From Lacisediminihabitans profunda (GTDB lineage: Bacteria; Actinomycetota; Actinomycetes; Actinomycetales; Microbacteriaceae), in NCBI RefSeq assembly GCF_008040105.1, contig NZ_VRMG01000009.1, positions 248,001 through 312,000 of the forward strand: a stretch of 64,000 bases of DNA, in the 5' to 3' direction. The notes beneath the pieces were generated by a model, which made no database searches, was not told where the DNA came from, and was given only the letters and a program-made list of their open reading frames with translations. Shown here piece by piece: positions 3,987-46,432 of the stretch (its first letter is position 1; each line of letters starts with the position of its first letter). A program made the position numbers and the translations under genes.

Positions 3987-4009
3987 TTCCGTCTACCGGG
4001 TGCGGCGGA

Positions 4010-4076
4010 CGCCCTCCGCCGCATGCCGGTCGCCGCGACGATGTTCGCCGGAGGCTGGACCATCTCGGCCCTCTGG
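4010..4076 (+). pseudogene. 3' end of an amidohydrolase gene (remnant in repeat copy 1)
   Basis: In frame, this stretch encodes a peptide reading ALRRMPVAAT then MFAGGWTISAL, which resembles the extreme C-terminus of YtcJ-type amidohydrolases (usually ..LRxMPVAATxVGGRxTY). Nothing upstream continues the enzyme. The expected stop codon reads TGG here but TAG in the second copy (38525-38527). It is a gene tail carried with the repeat element, not a functional gene. Confidence 0.55.
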
Positions 4077-4491
4077 TTGTGCCGCCTAGTTGTGCCGCCC
4101 GCGTCGGTCAGGCCGTGTTCTGCAGGACGGGCCCTGAGGCGTGGGTGCCTACCCCACAGACTCTGGTTATGCAGGACAGCTTGTGCAGGACACGGCAGGG
4201 GTATGGCGACTCGAACGGTTCCGGTCTGCAGGACGCTTCCGTCGGTTCTGCCCCGATCGTCCTCGCTGTCCGCCCGAGGCGTCCTGCACAACCCGTCCTG
4301 CCGTCCTTCACAACGCGTCCTGCACAACTGGAGTTTGTGGGGCGGGCACCCGTGGACGGCGGCGCCGTCCTGCACAACGCGTGCCAGGGCAAGGGAGTGC
4401 CGCACTGTGGCGGGGACACAGGCTCCACACCGCGATCGGAGCCCGCCCACCCATCAGCCGGTTAACCCAACATCCTGGGCAGTACAGCTAG
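4013..4491. repeat. Palindromic intergenic element, copy 1 (left-truncated)
   Basis: About 480 bp shared with 38466-38980. It contains the amidohydrolase tail, then CTAGTTGTGCCGCC, then TGCAGGAC words in the left half (4121, 4170, 4183, 4227) and their reverse, TCCTGCA, in the right half (4282, 4318, 4367). A 35-nt inverted pair lies at 4143-4177 and 4317-4351. The right end reads GGTTAACCC...CCTGGGCAGTACA (cagtaca at 4480-4486) and finishes in CTAG, whose complement is the TAG stop of hemA. It lies between the convergent LAXTG and hemA genes. ORFs crossing it are not coding. Confidence 0.8.
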
Positions 4492-5756
4492 GCGAGCTGG
4501 TCCAGCTGACCGTCGGAATTCGGCCGTTCGGCCGGGGTGGGAAGCTCGATGCCGAACAGGGCCACCACGGCCTCGTTGAACGACGCCGCCTCGCCGGCGC
4601 GGGCGAGCTCTCGAGCCCGGACGGATGGGGTGTGCAGCAGCACTCCGGCGAGATGACGCAGCGCCGCCTCGGTGCGGCCGTCACTGTCGCCGCGGGCGCG
4701 AGCCCGATCGATCTCGGCGTCGAGGACCCCGAAGACATGGGCACGCAGGGCGACGATGGCCGGGGTGAGCTGCTGCTCGGCGGTCTTCGCCGCATGCTCG
4801 GACACGGCCTCGCTCACGAGAGCGCGGGCGTCGCTCGCGGCAGTGAGCTCCTCGAGCGGGGCGTGCAGGCTCACGGTCTCGAGGTCGAGGAGCTCGATGC
4901 CCGGGATGGCGGCGATCGCCGGATCGACGTTGCGGGGGAGGCCGAGATCGATCACGATTCTGCGGCGCCCCTGAGCGACGATCGCCGTCGTGATGACCGG
5001 CGTGCTCGTGCTGGTGCAGGTGATGACGACGTCGGCATCGGCGATGGCGGACCGCAGATCGTCAGTGGCGGCCATCCCGTGACGCAGCGCGAAACGCGCG
5101 GCGCGCCCGGAGGCCGAGAACACGGTCAGATCGGCTGCACCTCGGTCTCGAAGCGCGGCGATCGTGGTGCCGGCGTACTGGCCGGTGCCCACGATGAGAA
5201 CTCGAGTGGCGGCCCAGTCGGCGATGCGGCTGGAGGTGAGCTCGAGCGCGAGGCGAACGAGCGAGCGTCCGGCGCCGCCGAGCGCCGTGCGGTTCTTCAC
5301 GCCTCGGGAGGTGTGGGCGGCCCGCTGGAAGAGGCGTTCGAGGCCGGACGAAGTGGTGCCCGCCACGCGAGCCTCCTCGAGGGCCCGGCGCACCTGGCCG
5401 GAGATCTCGTCTTCGCCGAGGATCACGGATTCGAGACCCGCGGACACGGCGAAGAGATGGCTGGCCACATCGTCTCCCTGCAGCACGCGTACCGAGGCGG
5501 TGAGTTCGTCCGCCTCGATCCCGCTCGCTTCGCTGATCACCCGAACGGTCCTCGCCACCGAATCGCTTGAGGTGGTCAGCGGTTCCGCGATCTCGAGGTA
5601 CGCCTCGAAGCGGTTGCAGGTGGCGAGCACGACCGCGCCCGTGACGAAGTCCCCGTTCTGCACCAGGATGCCGGCCGCCCGCGGCGCACCGATCGAGAGC
5701 TTCTCGAGAAGGTCGAAGCTCGCGTTTTGGTGGTTGGCGGTGAGGCAGAGAAGCAC
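4488..5756 (-). CDS. hemA: Glutamyl-tRNA reductase
   Basis: A 422-residue GluTR that reduces glutamyl-tRNA(Glu) with NADPH to glutamate-1-semialdehyde, the first step of C5 heme synthesis. The N-terminal catalytic domain carries nucleophile Cys47 in [14 protein letters not shown]. The motif [16 protein letters not shown] follows, and the Rossmann motif [11 protein letters not shown] marks the NADPH domain. A C-terminal helical dimerisation region completes the usual length. The start is GTG at 5756, six bases downstream of a possible TATGCT -10 box, so the mRNA may be leaderless. It diverges from hemE and ends exactly on the CTAG of the repeat element. Confidence 0.96.
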
Positions 5757-38317: not shown

Positions 38318-38385
38318 TCGCGCCGCCGATCGCGGGCTGACCCGCCGCCAGCTGTACTGTCCAGGCAGGTTGGTTTCGCGTGTGG

Positions 38386-38527
38386 CCGTCGGCGACGTTT
38401 GCGGATCTCGTGGTCGTGGACCTCGACCCCGTCACGGCCGCCGCGGACCTCCTCGCGGCTGCCCCGGACGTCCTCCGCCGCATGCCGGTCGCCGCATGCC
38501 GGAGGCTGGACCTTCTCGGCCCTCTAG
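38386..38527 (+). pseudogene. 3' end of an amidohydrolase gene (remnant in repeat copy 2)
   Basis: The frame encodes FADLVVVDLDPVTAA... then DVLRRMPVAA, the usual ADLVVLDxDPLT...LRxMPVAAT ending of YtcJ-type amidohydrolases. Relative to copy 1 an 8-bp deletion (near 38492) shifts the frame. Restoring it puts TAG at 38525-38527 in phase as the natural stop, and that TAG is the CTAG of the element. Non-functional. Confidence 0.55.
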
Positions 38528-38756
38528 TTGTACCGCCTAGTTGTGCCGCCCGCGTCGGTCGGGCCGCGTTCTGCAGGACGGGCCCCGGAGGTGCGGGTGC
38601 CCACCCCGCAGACTCCAGTTATGCAGGACATCTTATGCAGGACAGCTTGTGCAGGACACGGCAGGGGGTGGCGAACCGAAGGGTCCCGCTCTGCAGGACG
38701 CTCCCGTCGATTCTGCACCAATCGTCCTCGCTATCCGCCCGAGCCGTCCTGCAGAA

Positions 38757-38930
38757 CCGTCCTGCACAACTGGAGTCTGCGGGGTGGGCACCCGTGGACG
38801 GCGGAGCCGTCCTGCAGAACCCGTCCTGCACAACTGGAGTGTGTGGGGTGGGCGCCCGTGGACGCCCGAGCCGTCCTGCACAATTGGGGTCTGCGAGGCG
38901 GGCACCCGTGGACGCCCGAGCCGTCCTGAG
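38757..38930. repeat. 50-bp tandem repeats inside copy 2
   Basis: Units begin CCGTCCTGCACAA at 38757 (64 bp, with an extra CCGTCCTGCAGAA), 38821 (50 bp) and 38871 (50 bp), with a partial unit at 38921. Each contains GGGCRCCCGTGGACG, a small hairpin. Copy 1 has a single unit, so copy number varies between copies. Confidence 0.85.
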
Positions 38931-38976
38931 CCGGCCCCATCCATCAGCTGGTTAACAAACGTCCCTGGCAGTACAA

Positions 38977-40218
38977 CTAGCGTGCGCGGGGCGCGAGCCT
39001 CTCCAGCTGGGTGACGTGCGCCGGGGTGAGTTCCTCGAGCGAGTTCACCCCGAGCAGGCGCATGGTGCGCACGATCTGCTCGCCGAGGATCTCGATCGCC
39101 CGGTCGACGCCCTCGCGGCCGCCGGCCATCAGCCCGTACAGGTAGGCGCGACCGACCATCGTGAACTTGGCGCCGAGCGCCACGGCGGCGACGATGTCCG
39201 CGCCGCTCATGATGCCGGTGTCGAGGTGGATCTCGGTGTCCATGCCCACCTCCCGGGCGACCTCCGGCAGCAGGTGGAACGGGATCGGCGCCCGGTCGAG
39301 CTGGCGCCCGCCGTGGTTGGAGAGAGTGATGCCGTCCACTCCCATGCTCGCGAGCCGCTTGGCGTCCTCGAGGTTCTGCACGCCCTTGACCACGAGCTTG
39401 CCCGGCCACTGGTCCTTGATCCAGGCGAGGTCCTCGAAGGTGACCGTGGGGTCGAACATGGTGTCGAGCAACTCGCCGACGGTTCCGCTCCAGCGGTCGA
39501 GGGAGGCGAAGGCGAGCGGCTCGGTGGTGAGGAAGTTGATCCACCACTCGGGGCGCGGCAGGGCGTTGACGACGGTTCCGAGGGTGAGCTGCGGGGGGAT
39601 GGAGAATCCGTTGCGCTTGTCGCGCAGGCGCGCCCCGGCGACCGGCACATCCACCGTCACGAGCAGGGTGTCGAAGCCGGCGGCGGCGGCGCGGTCCACG
39701 AGGGCCATCGAGCGCTCGCGGTCCTTCCACATGTAGAGCTGGAACCAGTTGCGACCGTTCGGATTCGTCGCCTTCACGTCTTCGATCGCGGTCGTGCCCA
39801 TTGTCGAGAGCGCGAACGGGATGCCGGCGGCGGCGGCGGCCCCGGCCCCGGCGATCTCACCCTCGCTCTGCATCATGCGGGTGAAGCCGGTCGGGGCGAT
39901 GCCGAACGGGAAGGCCGTCGGGCCGCCGAGCACGGTCGACGAGGTGTCGACGACGGACACGTCGCGCAGGATTCCGGGGTTGAACTGGATGTCCTCGAAC
40001 GCCTGGCGGGCGCGGGCGAGCGAGATCTCCGCCTCCGCCGCGCCCTCGGTGTAGTCGAACGCGGCCTTCGGGGTGCGGCGTTTGGCGATCGTGCGCAGGT
40101 CGTGGATGGTGAGGGCGTTCTTCAGGCGGCGCTTCTTCGCGTTGAGCTCCGGCGTCTTGAAGTGCATGAGCGGCGCGAGATCGCGCGGTCGGGGGAATCG
40201 TCGTTGCAGGGAGGACAT
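38977..40218 (-). CDS. lldD: L-lactate dehydrogenase / FMN-dependent alpha-hydroxy-acid oxidising enzyme
   Basis: 413 residues; oxidises L-lactate to pyruvate with FMN and passes electrons to quinone or O2. The start has [18 protein letters not shown] and [23 protein letters not shown] and [16 protein letters not shown] bind FMN and substrate, [11 protein letters not shown] supplies the FMN Lys, and [13 protein letters not shown] the catalytic His. [19 protein letters not shown] closes the barrel. It follows the FadR-type regulator by 3 bp and ends on the repeat's CTAG. Confidence 0.92.
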
Positions 40219-45564: not shown

Positions 45565-46235
45565 GACGCGCGATCGTCACCGGCGCACAGAGCGGGATCG
45601 GCGAGGCGTGCGTGGCGCGACTCCGTCGGGAGGGAATCGAGACCTTCTCCCTCGATCTGTCGCCCGACGCCGACTTCTCCCTCGATGTGAGCGACTCCGC
45701 CGCGGTGAACCGGGCGGTGGCGGAGATCGGGCAGATCGACATCCTCATCAACAGCGCCGGCATCATCGGTCCGAACCTGCCGCTCTGGGAGGTCGACGAC
45801 CGGTCGTGGCAGAAGACTCTCGACGTGAATATCACCGGCGTCTTCAACCTCTGCCGAGCCGTCGTGCCCGGCATGCGCGAGAGGGGTTGGGGCCGCATCG
45901 TCACGATGGCGAGCATTGCCGGCAAGGAGGGCAACCCCAACCTCAGCGCCTACTCGACGTCGAAGGCGGCGGTCATCGGCCTCACCAAGTCCCTCGGCAA
46001 GGAGCTCGCCACGAGCGGCGTGCTCGTCAACGCGATCGCCCCCGCGGTGATCGAGACGCCGATGAATGCGGCGAACACCCCGGAGGTGCTCGACTACATG
46101 ATCTCGAAGATCCCGATGGGCAGGCTCGGCAGGGCGGATGAGGTGGCGAACCTCGTCTACTGGCTCGCGTCCGACGAGTGCAGCTTCTCCACCGGCAGCG
46201 TGTACGACATCAGCGGCGGCCGCGCCACCTACTAG
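45561..46235 (+). CDS. Short-chain dehydrogenase/reductase (probable 2-keto-3-deoxy-sugar-acid dehydrogenase)
   Basis: 224 residues. NAD-binding TGAQSGIG (7-14), INSAG, and the catalytic S-(x)-YxxxK in MASIAG...SAYSTSKAAV. The C-terminus GGRATY is typical of SDR enzymes. In the diketo-hydrolase route an SDR oxidises the C4 hydroxyl of the 2-keto-3-deoxy acid, giving the FAH substrate; this fits its place after the dehydratase. Its stop TAG shares the CTAG palindrome with the stop of the convergent 66-residue gene. Confidence 0.88.
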   Translation: MRRAIVTGAQSGIGEACVARLRREGIETFSLDLSPDADFSLDVSDSAAVNRAVAEIGQIDILINSAGIIGPNLPLWEVDDRSWQKTLDVNITGVFNLCRAVVPGMRERGWGRIVTMASIAGKEGNPNLSAYSTSKAAVIGLTKSLGKELATSGVLVNAIAPAVIETPMNAANTPEVLDYMISKIPMGRLGRADEVANLVYWLASDECSFSTGSVYDISGGRATY

Positions 46236-46432
46236 GCGTACTGCCCAGGCGGGTTCCGGCCGAAGGCCCACTCGTTGGCGAGGGTGCGGTCCGCGACGCG
46301 CGACCACACGATTCTGGCGCCGTCGAGCGATGCCCGCGTCGGGTGCTCCGCGTGCTCGGCCGCCTCATCCAGATAGCGCTCGCTGACGACCTTGATGTCG
46401 AGGTAGCCGCCCGCGGCGTCGTGGTGTCTCAC
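46232..46432 (-). CDS. 66-residue hypothetical protein coupled to rhaB
   Basis: GTG at 46432 overlaps the rhaB stop (GTGA), so it is probably translated. The sequence (GGYLDIKVVSERYLDEAAEH, RIVWSRVADRTLANEW, tail NPPGQYA) matches no family I know. The last codons and the stop coincide with an IS-end-like sequence (GTACTGCCCAGGCGGGTT, 46238-46255), so the C-terminus may be secondarily acquired. Confidence 0.5.
   Translation of the reverse strand: MRHHDAAGGYLDIKVVSERYLDEAAEHAEHPTRASLDGARIVWSRVADRTLANEWAFGRNPPGQYA

Follow-up and report, generated by a model that had tools for sequence, protein, structure and literature searches.

A probable IS481-derived MITE family with a REP-like hairpin interior, found mainly at CTAG stop codons in Lacisediminihabitans profunda

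Bacterial MITEs are short, multi-copy sequences with terminal inverted repeats and no transposase, and their ends are common to autonomous insertion sequences. REP and BIME elements are intergenic and palindromic, and consist of arrayed hairpins. Among described transposable elements, two members of the IS481 family offer the closest comparison with the sequence discussed here. According to PMC2516522, ISLxc2 from Leifsonia xyli is 1,105 bp long, contains a transposase frame of 332 aa that an in-frame stop interrupts, is flanked by NCTAGN direct repeats, and has its transposase stop within the host insertion site. TnRErm46/ISRe46 from Rhodococcus equi also has a CTAG target and NCTAGN repeats, and, according to PMC6794481, the target TAG provides the stop codon both for the transposase and for certain host genes, whose frames stay uninterrupted. 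Furthermore, the large survey in PMC9208149 lists IS481 among the families that are in excess between convergent genes as well as in one of the co-directional orientations.

The window analysed here is a 64,000-nucleotide stretch of the L. profunda genome, for which a sequence-only reading had proposed an undescribed palindromic element that occurs twice, both times between convergent genes, and that behaves either as a non-autonomous mobile element or as a specialised bidirectional insulator. We consider it very probable that the element is a MITE, namely an internally deleted, non-autonomous derivative of an ISLxc2/ISLxx4-like IS481 insertion sequence, spread by the transposase of that family into NCTAGN targets. 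The features of the window that bear on this reading are the following:

3997..4486, plus strand: copy 1 of the probable MITE, delimited by homology to copy 2 from 3997 and by the right TIR (L012); its left IS end is missing or degraded, and its right one is intact, to ...CAGTACA
4117..4379, no strand: palindromic core of TGCAGGAC units of copy 1, from motif positions; fold z=-9.1
4426..4491, plus strand: 3′-end remnant of an IS481-family transposase gene in copy 1, with its stop inside the target CTAG
4487..4492, no strand: target hexamer GCTAGG of copy 1, which includes the hemA TAG stop (minus strand, 4488-4490)
38347..38352, no strand: left target hexamer GCCAGC of copy 2, a decayed NCTAGN
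38353..38975, plus strand: copy 2 of the probable MITE, with both IS ends, TGTACTGTCCAGG ... CCTGGCAGTACA
38568..38883, no strand: palindromic core of TGCAGGAC units of copy 2, from motif positions; fold z=-9.7 for 38560-38885
38976..38981, no strand: right target hexamer ACTAGC of copy 2, which includes the TAG stop of the lldD-like gene (minus strand, 38977-38979)
46232..46250, no strand: CTAG and the IS-end-like GCGTACTGCCCAGG, without the element; on both strands, gene calls end at this CTAG

The two copies are homologous, with 84% identity across 304-320 bp and further common pieces of 57-78 bp, and in both of them the TGCAGGAC clusters are inverted (plus strand 4121-4227 and minus strand 4281-4367 in copy 1; plus strand 38572-38692 and minus strand 38746-38873 in copy 2), as the sequence-only reading had described. 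Both cores fold far beyond their shuffles at the z scores listed above, that of copy 1 as RNA and that of copy 2 as single-stranded DNA. The suspected start of copy 2 at 38353 was confirmed, given that the TGTACTGTCCAGG end begins there and the matching inverted end finishes at 38975; within this copy, the stretch 38375-38490 resembles a gene tail (DLVVVDLDPVTAAADLLAAAPDVLRRMP). The names given to the flanking genes held in part. Profile searches identified hemA beside copy 1 (NCBIfam NF000750, 512 bits) and, through Pfam, the IclR-type regulator beside copy 2, whereas the supposed lldD is an FMN-dependent dehydrogenase that scores under the LldD cut-off, and the large gene to the left of copy 1 had no family match in these searches, its putative "LPXTG" label deriving only from the appearance of its C-terminus. 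At 46232-46250, the CTAG ends a plus-strand gene call together with a short minus-strand call whose C-terminus, read by eye, is PPGQYA followed by the stop; the adjoining GCGTACTGCCCAGG could be what is left of a right IS end, or a chance resemblance.

Far from occurring only twice, the element is present at about 40 loci of its own draft genome (G000, 4.02 Mb, 171 contigs), where a DNA search with copy 2 gave 134 matching pieces that we grouped by eye into 40 loci, 30 of them delivered by the search itself (L001-L030) and 10 retrieved through their coordinates (L036-L045). The element measures about 0.3-0.7 kb, its TGCAGGAC motifs run in plus-then-minus order in 37 of the 40 loci (the exceptions being L041, L044, and L045), and same-strand spacings between them are mainly 14 and 50 bp. 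No coding call falls within the element at any of the 40 loci, the transposase being represented only by its C-terminal remnant, and the two loci compared with Rfam (L001 and L012) gave no match to its RNA families at the gathering threshold. The copies have diverged from one another (best pair 95%, median about 84%, among 374 pairs aligned over at least 200 bp), so the family is probably old and possibly inactive. A search of 12 congeners returned no full copy, only short matches in four of them.

The evidence for the parentage of the element comes mainly from its ends. At the junctions of the loci, there is a common end in which NCTAGN precedes TGTACTGCCCAGG; further inward the two sides differ, with CAGGTTGGTTGATTGGGTGTGACGACTCGC at one and GACGTTGGTTAACCAGCTGATGGGTGGGC at the other. 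The left 48-79 bp correspond to a kind of end that is also found in genomes of the family, 14 of 249 of which match at E<=1e-6 (our genome included), and several family genomes carry two such ends facing each other about 1.1 kb apart. The gene between the facing ends can be seen in G191 (locus L048) and is decayed or split in G003; the L048 reading frame is an IS481-family transposase (NCBIfam NF033577, 331 bits vs a cut-off of 224) with the Pfam domains rve and LZ_Tnp_IS481. The other kind of end corresponds to the 3′ terminus of this gene, and the 21-letter tail of copy 1 aligns with the L048 C-terminus, HTAIGNRPPMSRLTNVPGQYS followed by the stop, which bears out the IS-like right end that had been noticed from the sequence. 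Thirty-five of the 40 loci have one or more IS-derived ends that score at least 44, and 17 have both kinds on opposite sides, while such a score was reached by only 4 of 1,000 two-piece random controls (maximum 45). A recognisable IS end is absent from five of the 40 loci (L006, L009, L016, L042, and L044). At positions 1990-2030 of L007, the right end bears TGTAGTTCCCGGGGACGTTG, which is the end of another IS481-type element of L. profunda and is joined here to MITE sequence, possibly through a hybrid or nested event.

An intact ISLxc2-like transposase was not seen among the seven matches in the draft genome of L. profunda. A relict (L079, at C117:71840) matches residues 13-84 and retains the right end. 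Other IS481-type pieces, located near the starts of contigs C2, C34, and C76 (L067, L073, and L078), bear different ends (TGTAGTTCCCGGG), and probably represent a multi-copy IS that breaks the assembly.

Identical NCTAGN hexamers are found on both sides in six of the eight elements of relatives that were tested (they differ in L048 and L066), and they mismatch in two further relatives' elements with both ends that lie outside this set (L058, and L072, which is the same place as L047). In the 16 copies of our own genome that have both outer ends, a set that takes in L007 with its foreign right end, the hexamers are identical in two, have one mismatch in seven, two mismatches in six, and five mismatches in one, L027, in which the pair is offset by one base. 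In these 16 copies, the outer hexamer bases agree at 18 of 32 positions vs a permuted mean of 9.9 (p=0.001), and these hexamers are best read as an old, decayed 6-bp target duplication.

Loci without the insert can also be found in relatives. We found matches to hemA in 11 of 12 relatives, and in seven of these 11 (G002, G004, G006, G007, G008, G009, and G011) the locus has a comparable convergent neighbour, with a membrane-anchor-like C-terminus, and lacks the element; the two genes lie 64-184 bp apart, except in G008, where their stops overlap in a CTAG, while the intergenic gap in the window is 563 bp. In G003, G005, G010, and G012, hemA has another called neighbour or none, with gaps of up to about 730 bp. 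The hemA locus without the insert in these relatives, together with the IS481-type ends and with hexamers that agree beyond chance, supports the suggestion made in the sequence-only reading of a non-autonomous mobile element without a transposase.

Whether the target was already a stop codon before the insertion differs in its support from one locus to another. For hemA, the gene ends in CTAG in only one of the 11 relatives (G008) and mostly in CTGA, so a CTAG that preceded the insertion is not established there. The lldD-like gene ends in CTAG in three of the eight relatives with a printed stop (G010, G011, and G012), and in G011 the stop of the facing gene overlaps it; the protein is shorter in the window than in most relatives, and may thus have been shortened by the insertion, and its end resembles that of G008 (RAR followed by the stop). 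The LCP-family gene (PF03816) to the left of L020 ends in CTAG, with a closely similar C-terminus, in three of nine relatives (G001, G009, and G011), in GTAG in five, and in GTGA in one, which is consistent with a CTAG stop that predates the insertion. This last comparison covers the left-hand stop, since in none of the relatives examined did the right-hand gene of L020 lie next to its left-hand gene.

To place the gene context of the copies against a baseline, we sampled 400 kb of the L. profunda genome in 20 pieces of 20 kb each (L133-L152), located clear of all 40 loci, with gene calls made by our own codon-usage model, trained on the window, rather than by a standard caller. CTAG occurs 156 times in these 400 kb, while base composition predicts 1,194 occurrences and a Markov estimate 395, a depletion of about 7.7-fold and 2.5-fold, respectively. 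Forty-nine of the 156 sites are TAG stops (two of them on both strands), 86 are intergenic, and 21 lie within called genes; TAG accounts for 106 of the 349 stop codons in the sample. Of the 50 CTAG stops with a called neighbour, 26 have a convergent gene opposite them and the other 24 lack one, while for all stops these numbers are 90 and 251.

According to the same kind of calls, both window copies lie between convergent genes, as had been reported, and so do 22 of the 40 loci, while 17 have one facing gene and one lacks a call on one side; no copy interrupts a called gene or separates two divergent ones. A facing gene that ends in CTAG is present at 33 of the 40 loci, two such genes are present at seven loci, and, in total, 40 of 62 facing genes have this ending. 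The convergent share of the copies (22/39) differs from that of all stops (p=3e-4) and does not differ from that of CTAG stops (26/50, p=0.83). An insulator is therefore not required to account for the convergent context. The frequency of copies at stops (33/40) exceeds that of CTAG sites at stops (49/156, p=5e-9, with counts that were not made exactly alike), and the target alone does not explain this excess, given that the largest class of CTAG sites is intergenic (86/156); selection or some further preference is needed. We infer that the excess reflects selection against insertions in genes and upstream regions.

These numbers bear directly on the second suggestion of the earlier reading, a specialised bidirectional terminator or insulator kept by selection between convergent genes, to which the IS-like ends would be incidental. 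An extremely stable core hairpin, the plus-then-minus motif order, the convergent position of more than half of the loci, and the enrichment at stops beyond the CTAG share are all what such an element would lead one to expect. Nevertheless, we regard it as improbable, as the convergent share is that of CTAG stops, 17 loci have a single facing gene, the full copy is absent from the 12 congeners, and solo hairpins in the genus are also found between co-directional and divergent genes. The sequence-only reading itself had counted an equal occurrence inside genes and between co-directional genes as evidence against its proposal, and the outcome is divided, with one facing gene in 17 of the 39 loci called on both flanks and no copy inside a called gene or flanked by a divergent pair.

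The interior of the element is a palindrome of REP-like TGCAGGAC hairpin units, which also occur without IS ends in L. profunda and in its congeners. With up to two mismatches, we counted 117 units in our genome, 21 in G011, 11 in G007, 4 in G004, and 0-3 in the other congeners, while the reversed pattern, used as a control, gave 0-4 occurrences. In eight short-loop hairpins chosen from congeners (six from G011), 97.1% of the cells are paired and both sides change at 4 of 17 pairs; the covariation score and the paired cells exceed all 500 shuffles, while 35 of 500 shuffles reach the observed number of changed pairs and 78 of 500 that of pair types. Solo hairpins lie between convergent, co-directional, and divergent genes, which makes them REP-like rather than specific to convergent contexts.

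In the searches made, the hairpin family appears only in this genus. An exact search for the longer motif found it in none of 248 other genomes of the bacterial family, four of them congeners; the exact core pattern gave no stretch in genome_contigs, a collection that possibly does not include our genome, and the solo-hairpin pattern gave four stretches there, all from the MAG Microbacteriaceae bacterium RYN_86. In L. profunda, solo TGCAGGAC units without IS ends were seen at L115 (contig C1), L116 and L119 (C23), L117 (C65), and L118 (C117), where they form arrays with a period of about 48-50 bp (L116 and L117) or more loosely spaced sets (L115 and L118), while L119 has a single unit that overlaps a gene call. 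The variants of the hairpin arms are often uniform within a locus (for example, CTCCCG in L116 and CTCTGG in L117), which suggests local homogenisation.

Hairpins of this kind raise the question of whether they are REP/BIME-type elements moved by a RAYT (Y1 HUH) transposase, with the IS481 ends gained secondarily. The existence of units without IS ends in our genome and in congeners, and the covariation of the arms in the eight chosen hairpins, would fit such an origin. We rejected it as very improbable, since Y1_Tnp (PF01797) was found in none of the 13 genomes of the genus vs 5 of 14 control genomes, and 35 of the 40 multi-copy loci have IS481 ends. Two other candidates were also discarded: integron attC sites, as GCACAAC does not fit their RYYYAAC/GTTRRRY cores, and a phage origin of the core, for which two exact patterns gave no match in viral_contigs. 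An assembly or contamination artefact of the repeat, for which the 171 contigs of the draft could speak, has a negligible probability, given that the copies lie inside contigs with differing flanking genes and differ mutually to the extent described above.

A derivation from an ISLxc2/ISLxx4-like sequence suggests the following course of events. The founding copy would have contained REP-like hairpins specific to the genus (YTCCNGTTNTGCAGGAC together with the reverse-complement form), in an array that was amplified along with the ends when an IS481 transposase, no longer intact in the draft, mobilised the MITE in trans and spread it into NCTAGN targets. As L. profunda has few CTAG sites, roughly one in three of which are C-TAG stop codons, many targets would be found at gene ends; CTAG is, moreover, its own reverse complement, and so one site can end both of two convergent genes. 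A copy at such a stop would leave the gene readable up to its own stop, and copies at other sites were probably removed by selection. The very stable core may provide an incidental, terminator-like activity at 3′ ends in both directions. A bolder proposal is that an IS481 MITE captured a hairpin family (YTCCNGTTNTGCAGGAC...) that is restricted to the genus and lacks a RAYT system, and delivered it to gene ends across the genome, so that the copies are strong bidirectional 3′-end structures that rewire transcript ends at about 40 loci because the target happens to be a stop codon; we consider this rather unlikely.

The claim that the element was undescribed stands, within the searches made, for the family and not for the type of its parent IS or its target habit, which had been published. 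In the open-licence papers searched, among them PMC9208149 and PMC12859917, we found no IS481-derived MITE of this kind, and neither did we find, in such papers, an explanation of the convergent bias through CTAG stops. A search for the motif letters with "repeat" gave, among the matches listed, papers that were all apparently unrelated by title, and one for REP in Microbacteriaceae found only work that was unrelated by title and the start of the abstract. Stop-codon targeting by IS481 elements is already published, while the MITE with a REP-like cargo appears to be new.

The closest likeness is to ISLxc2/ISLxx4, whose ends (TGTGCTGCTCAGGGACGTTGGT) are near-identical to those found here (TGTACTGCCCAGGGACGTTGGT), and which shares the NCTAGN direct repeats and the location of the transposase stop in the host site (PMC2516522). 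In contrast to the 1,105 bp of ISLxc2 and its transposase frame, the element described here has only about 0.3-0.7 kb, a transposase tail, and an internal hairpin array. TnRErm46/ISRe46 has in common with it the CTAG target, the NCTAGN repeats, and the use of the stop codon, but differs in its end (TGTTGCGGGTCATGACGTTG) and in being a 6.9-kb cargo transposon (PMC6794481). The over-representation of IS481 between convergent genes, as given in PMC9208149, gains a testable cause. A transposase that targets CTAG, the depletion of this sequence, the third or so of its sites that are stops, a palindrome that can end two genes, and the half of these stops that are convergent provide a simple quantitative reason why some mobile elements seem to favour the space between convergent genes. 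As for the two general classes, the element has the traits of bacterial MITEs, with an interior that is a REP-like palindromic array, and it is intergenic, palindromic, and arrayed, with arms that covary, as in REP/BIME elements; unlike the latter, it has no RAYT/Y1 gene in the genomes of the genus, and its amplification would ride on IS481 ends. It documents a MITE with a passenger, namely an array of REP-like hairpins, if its derivation from IS481 is, as we think very probable, correct.
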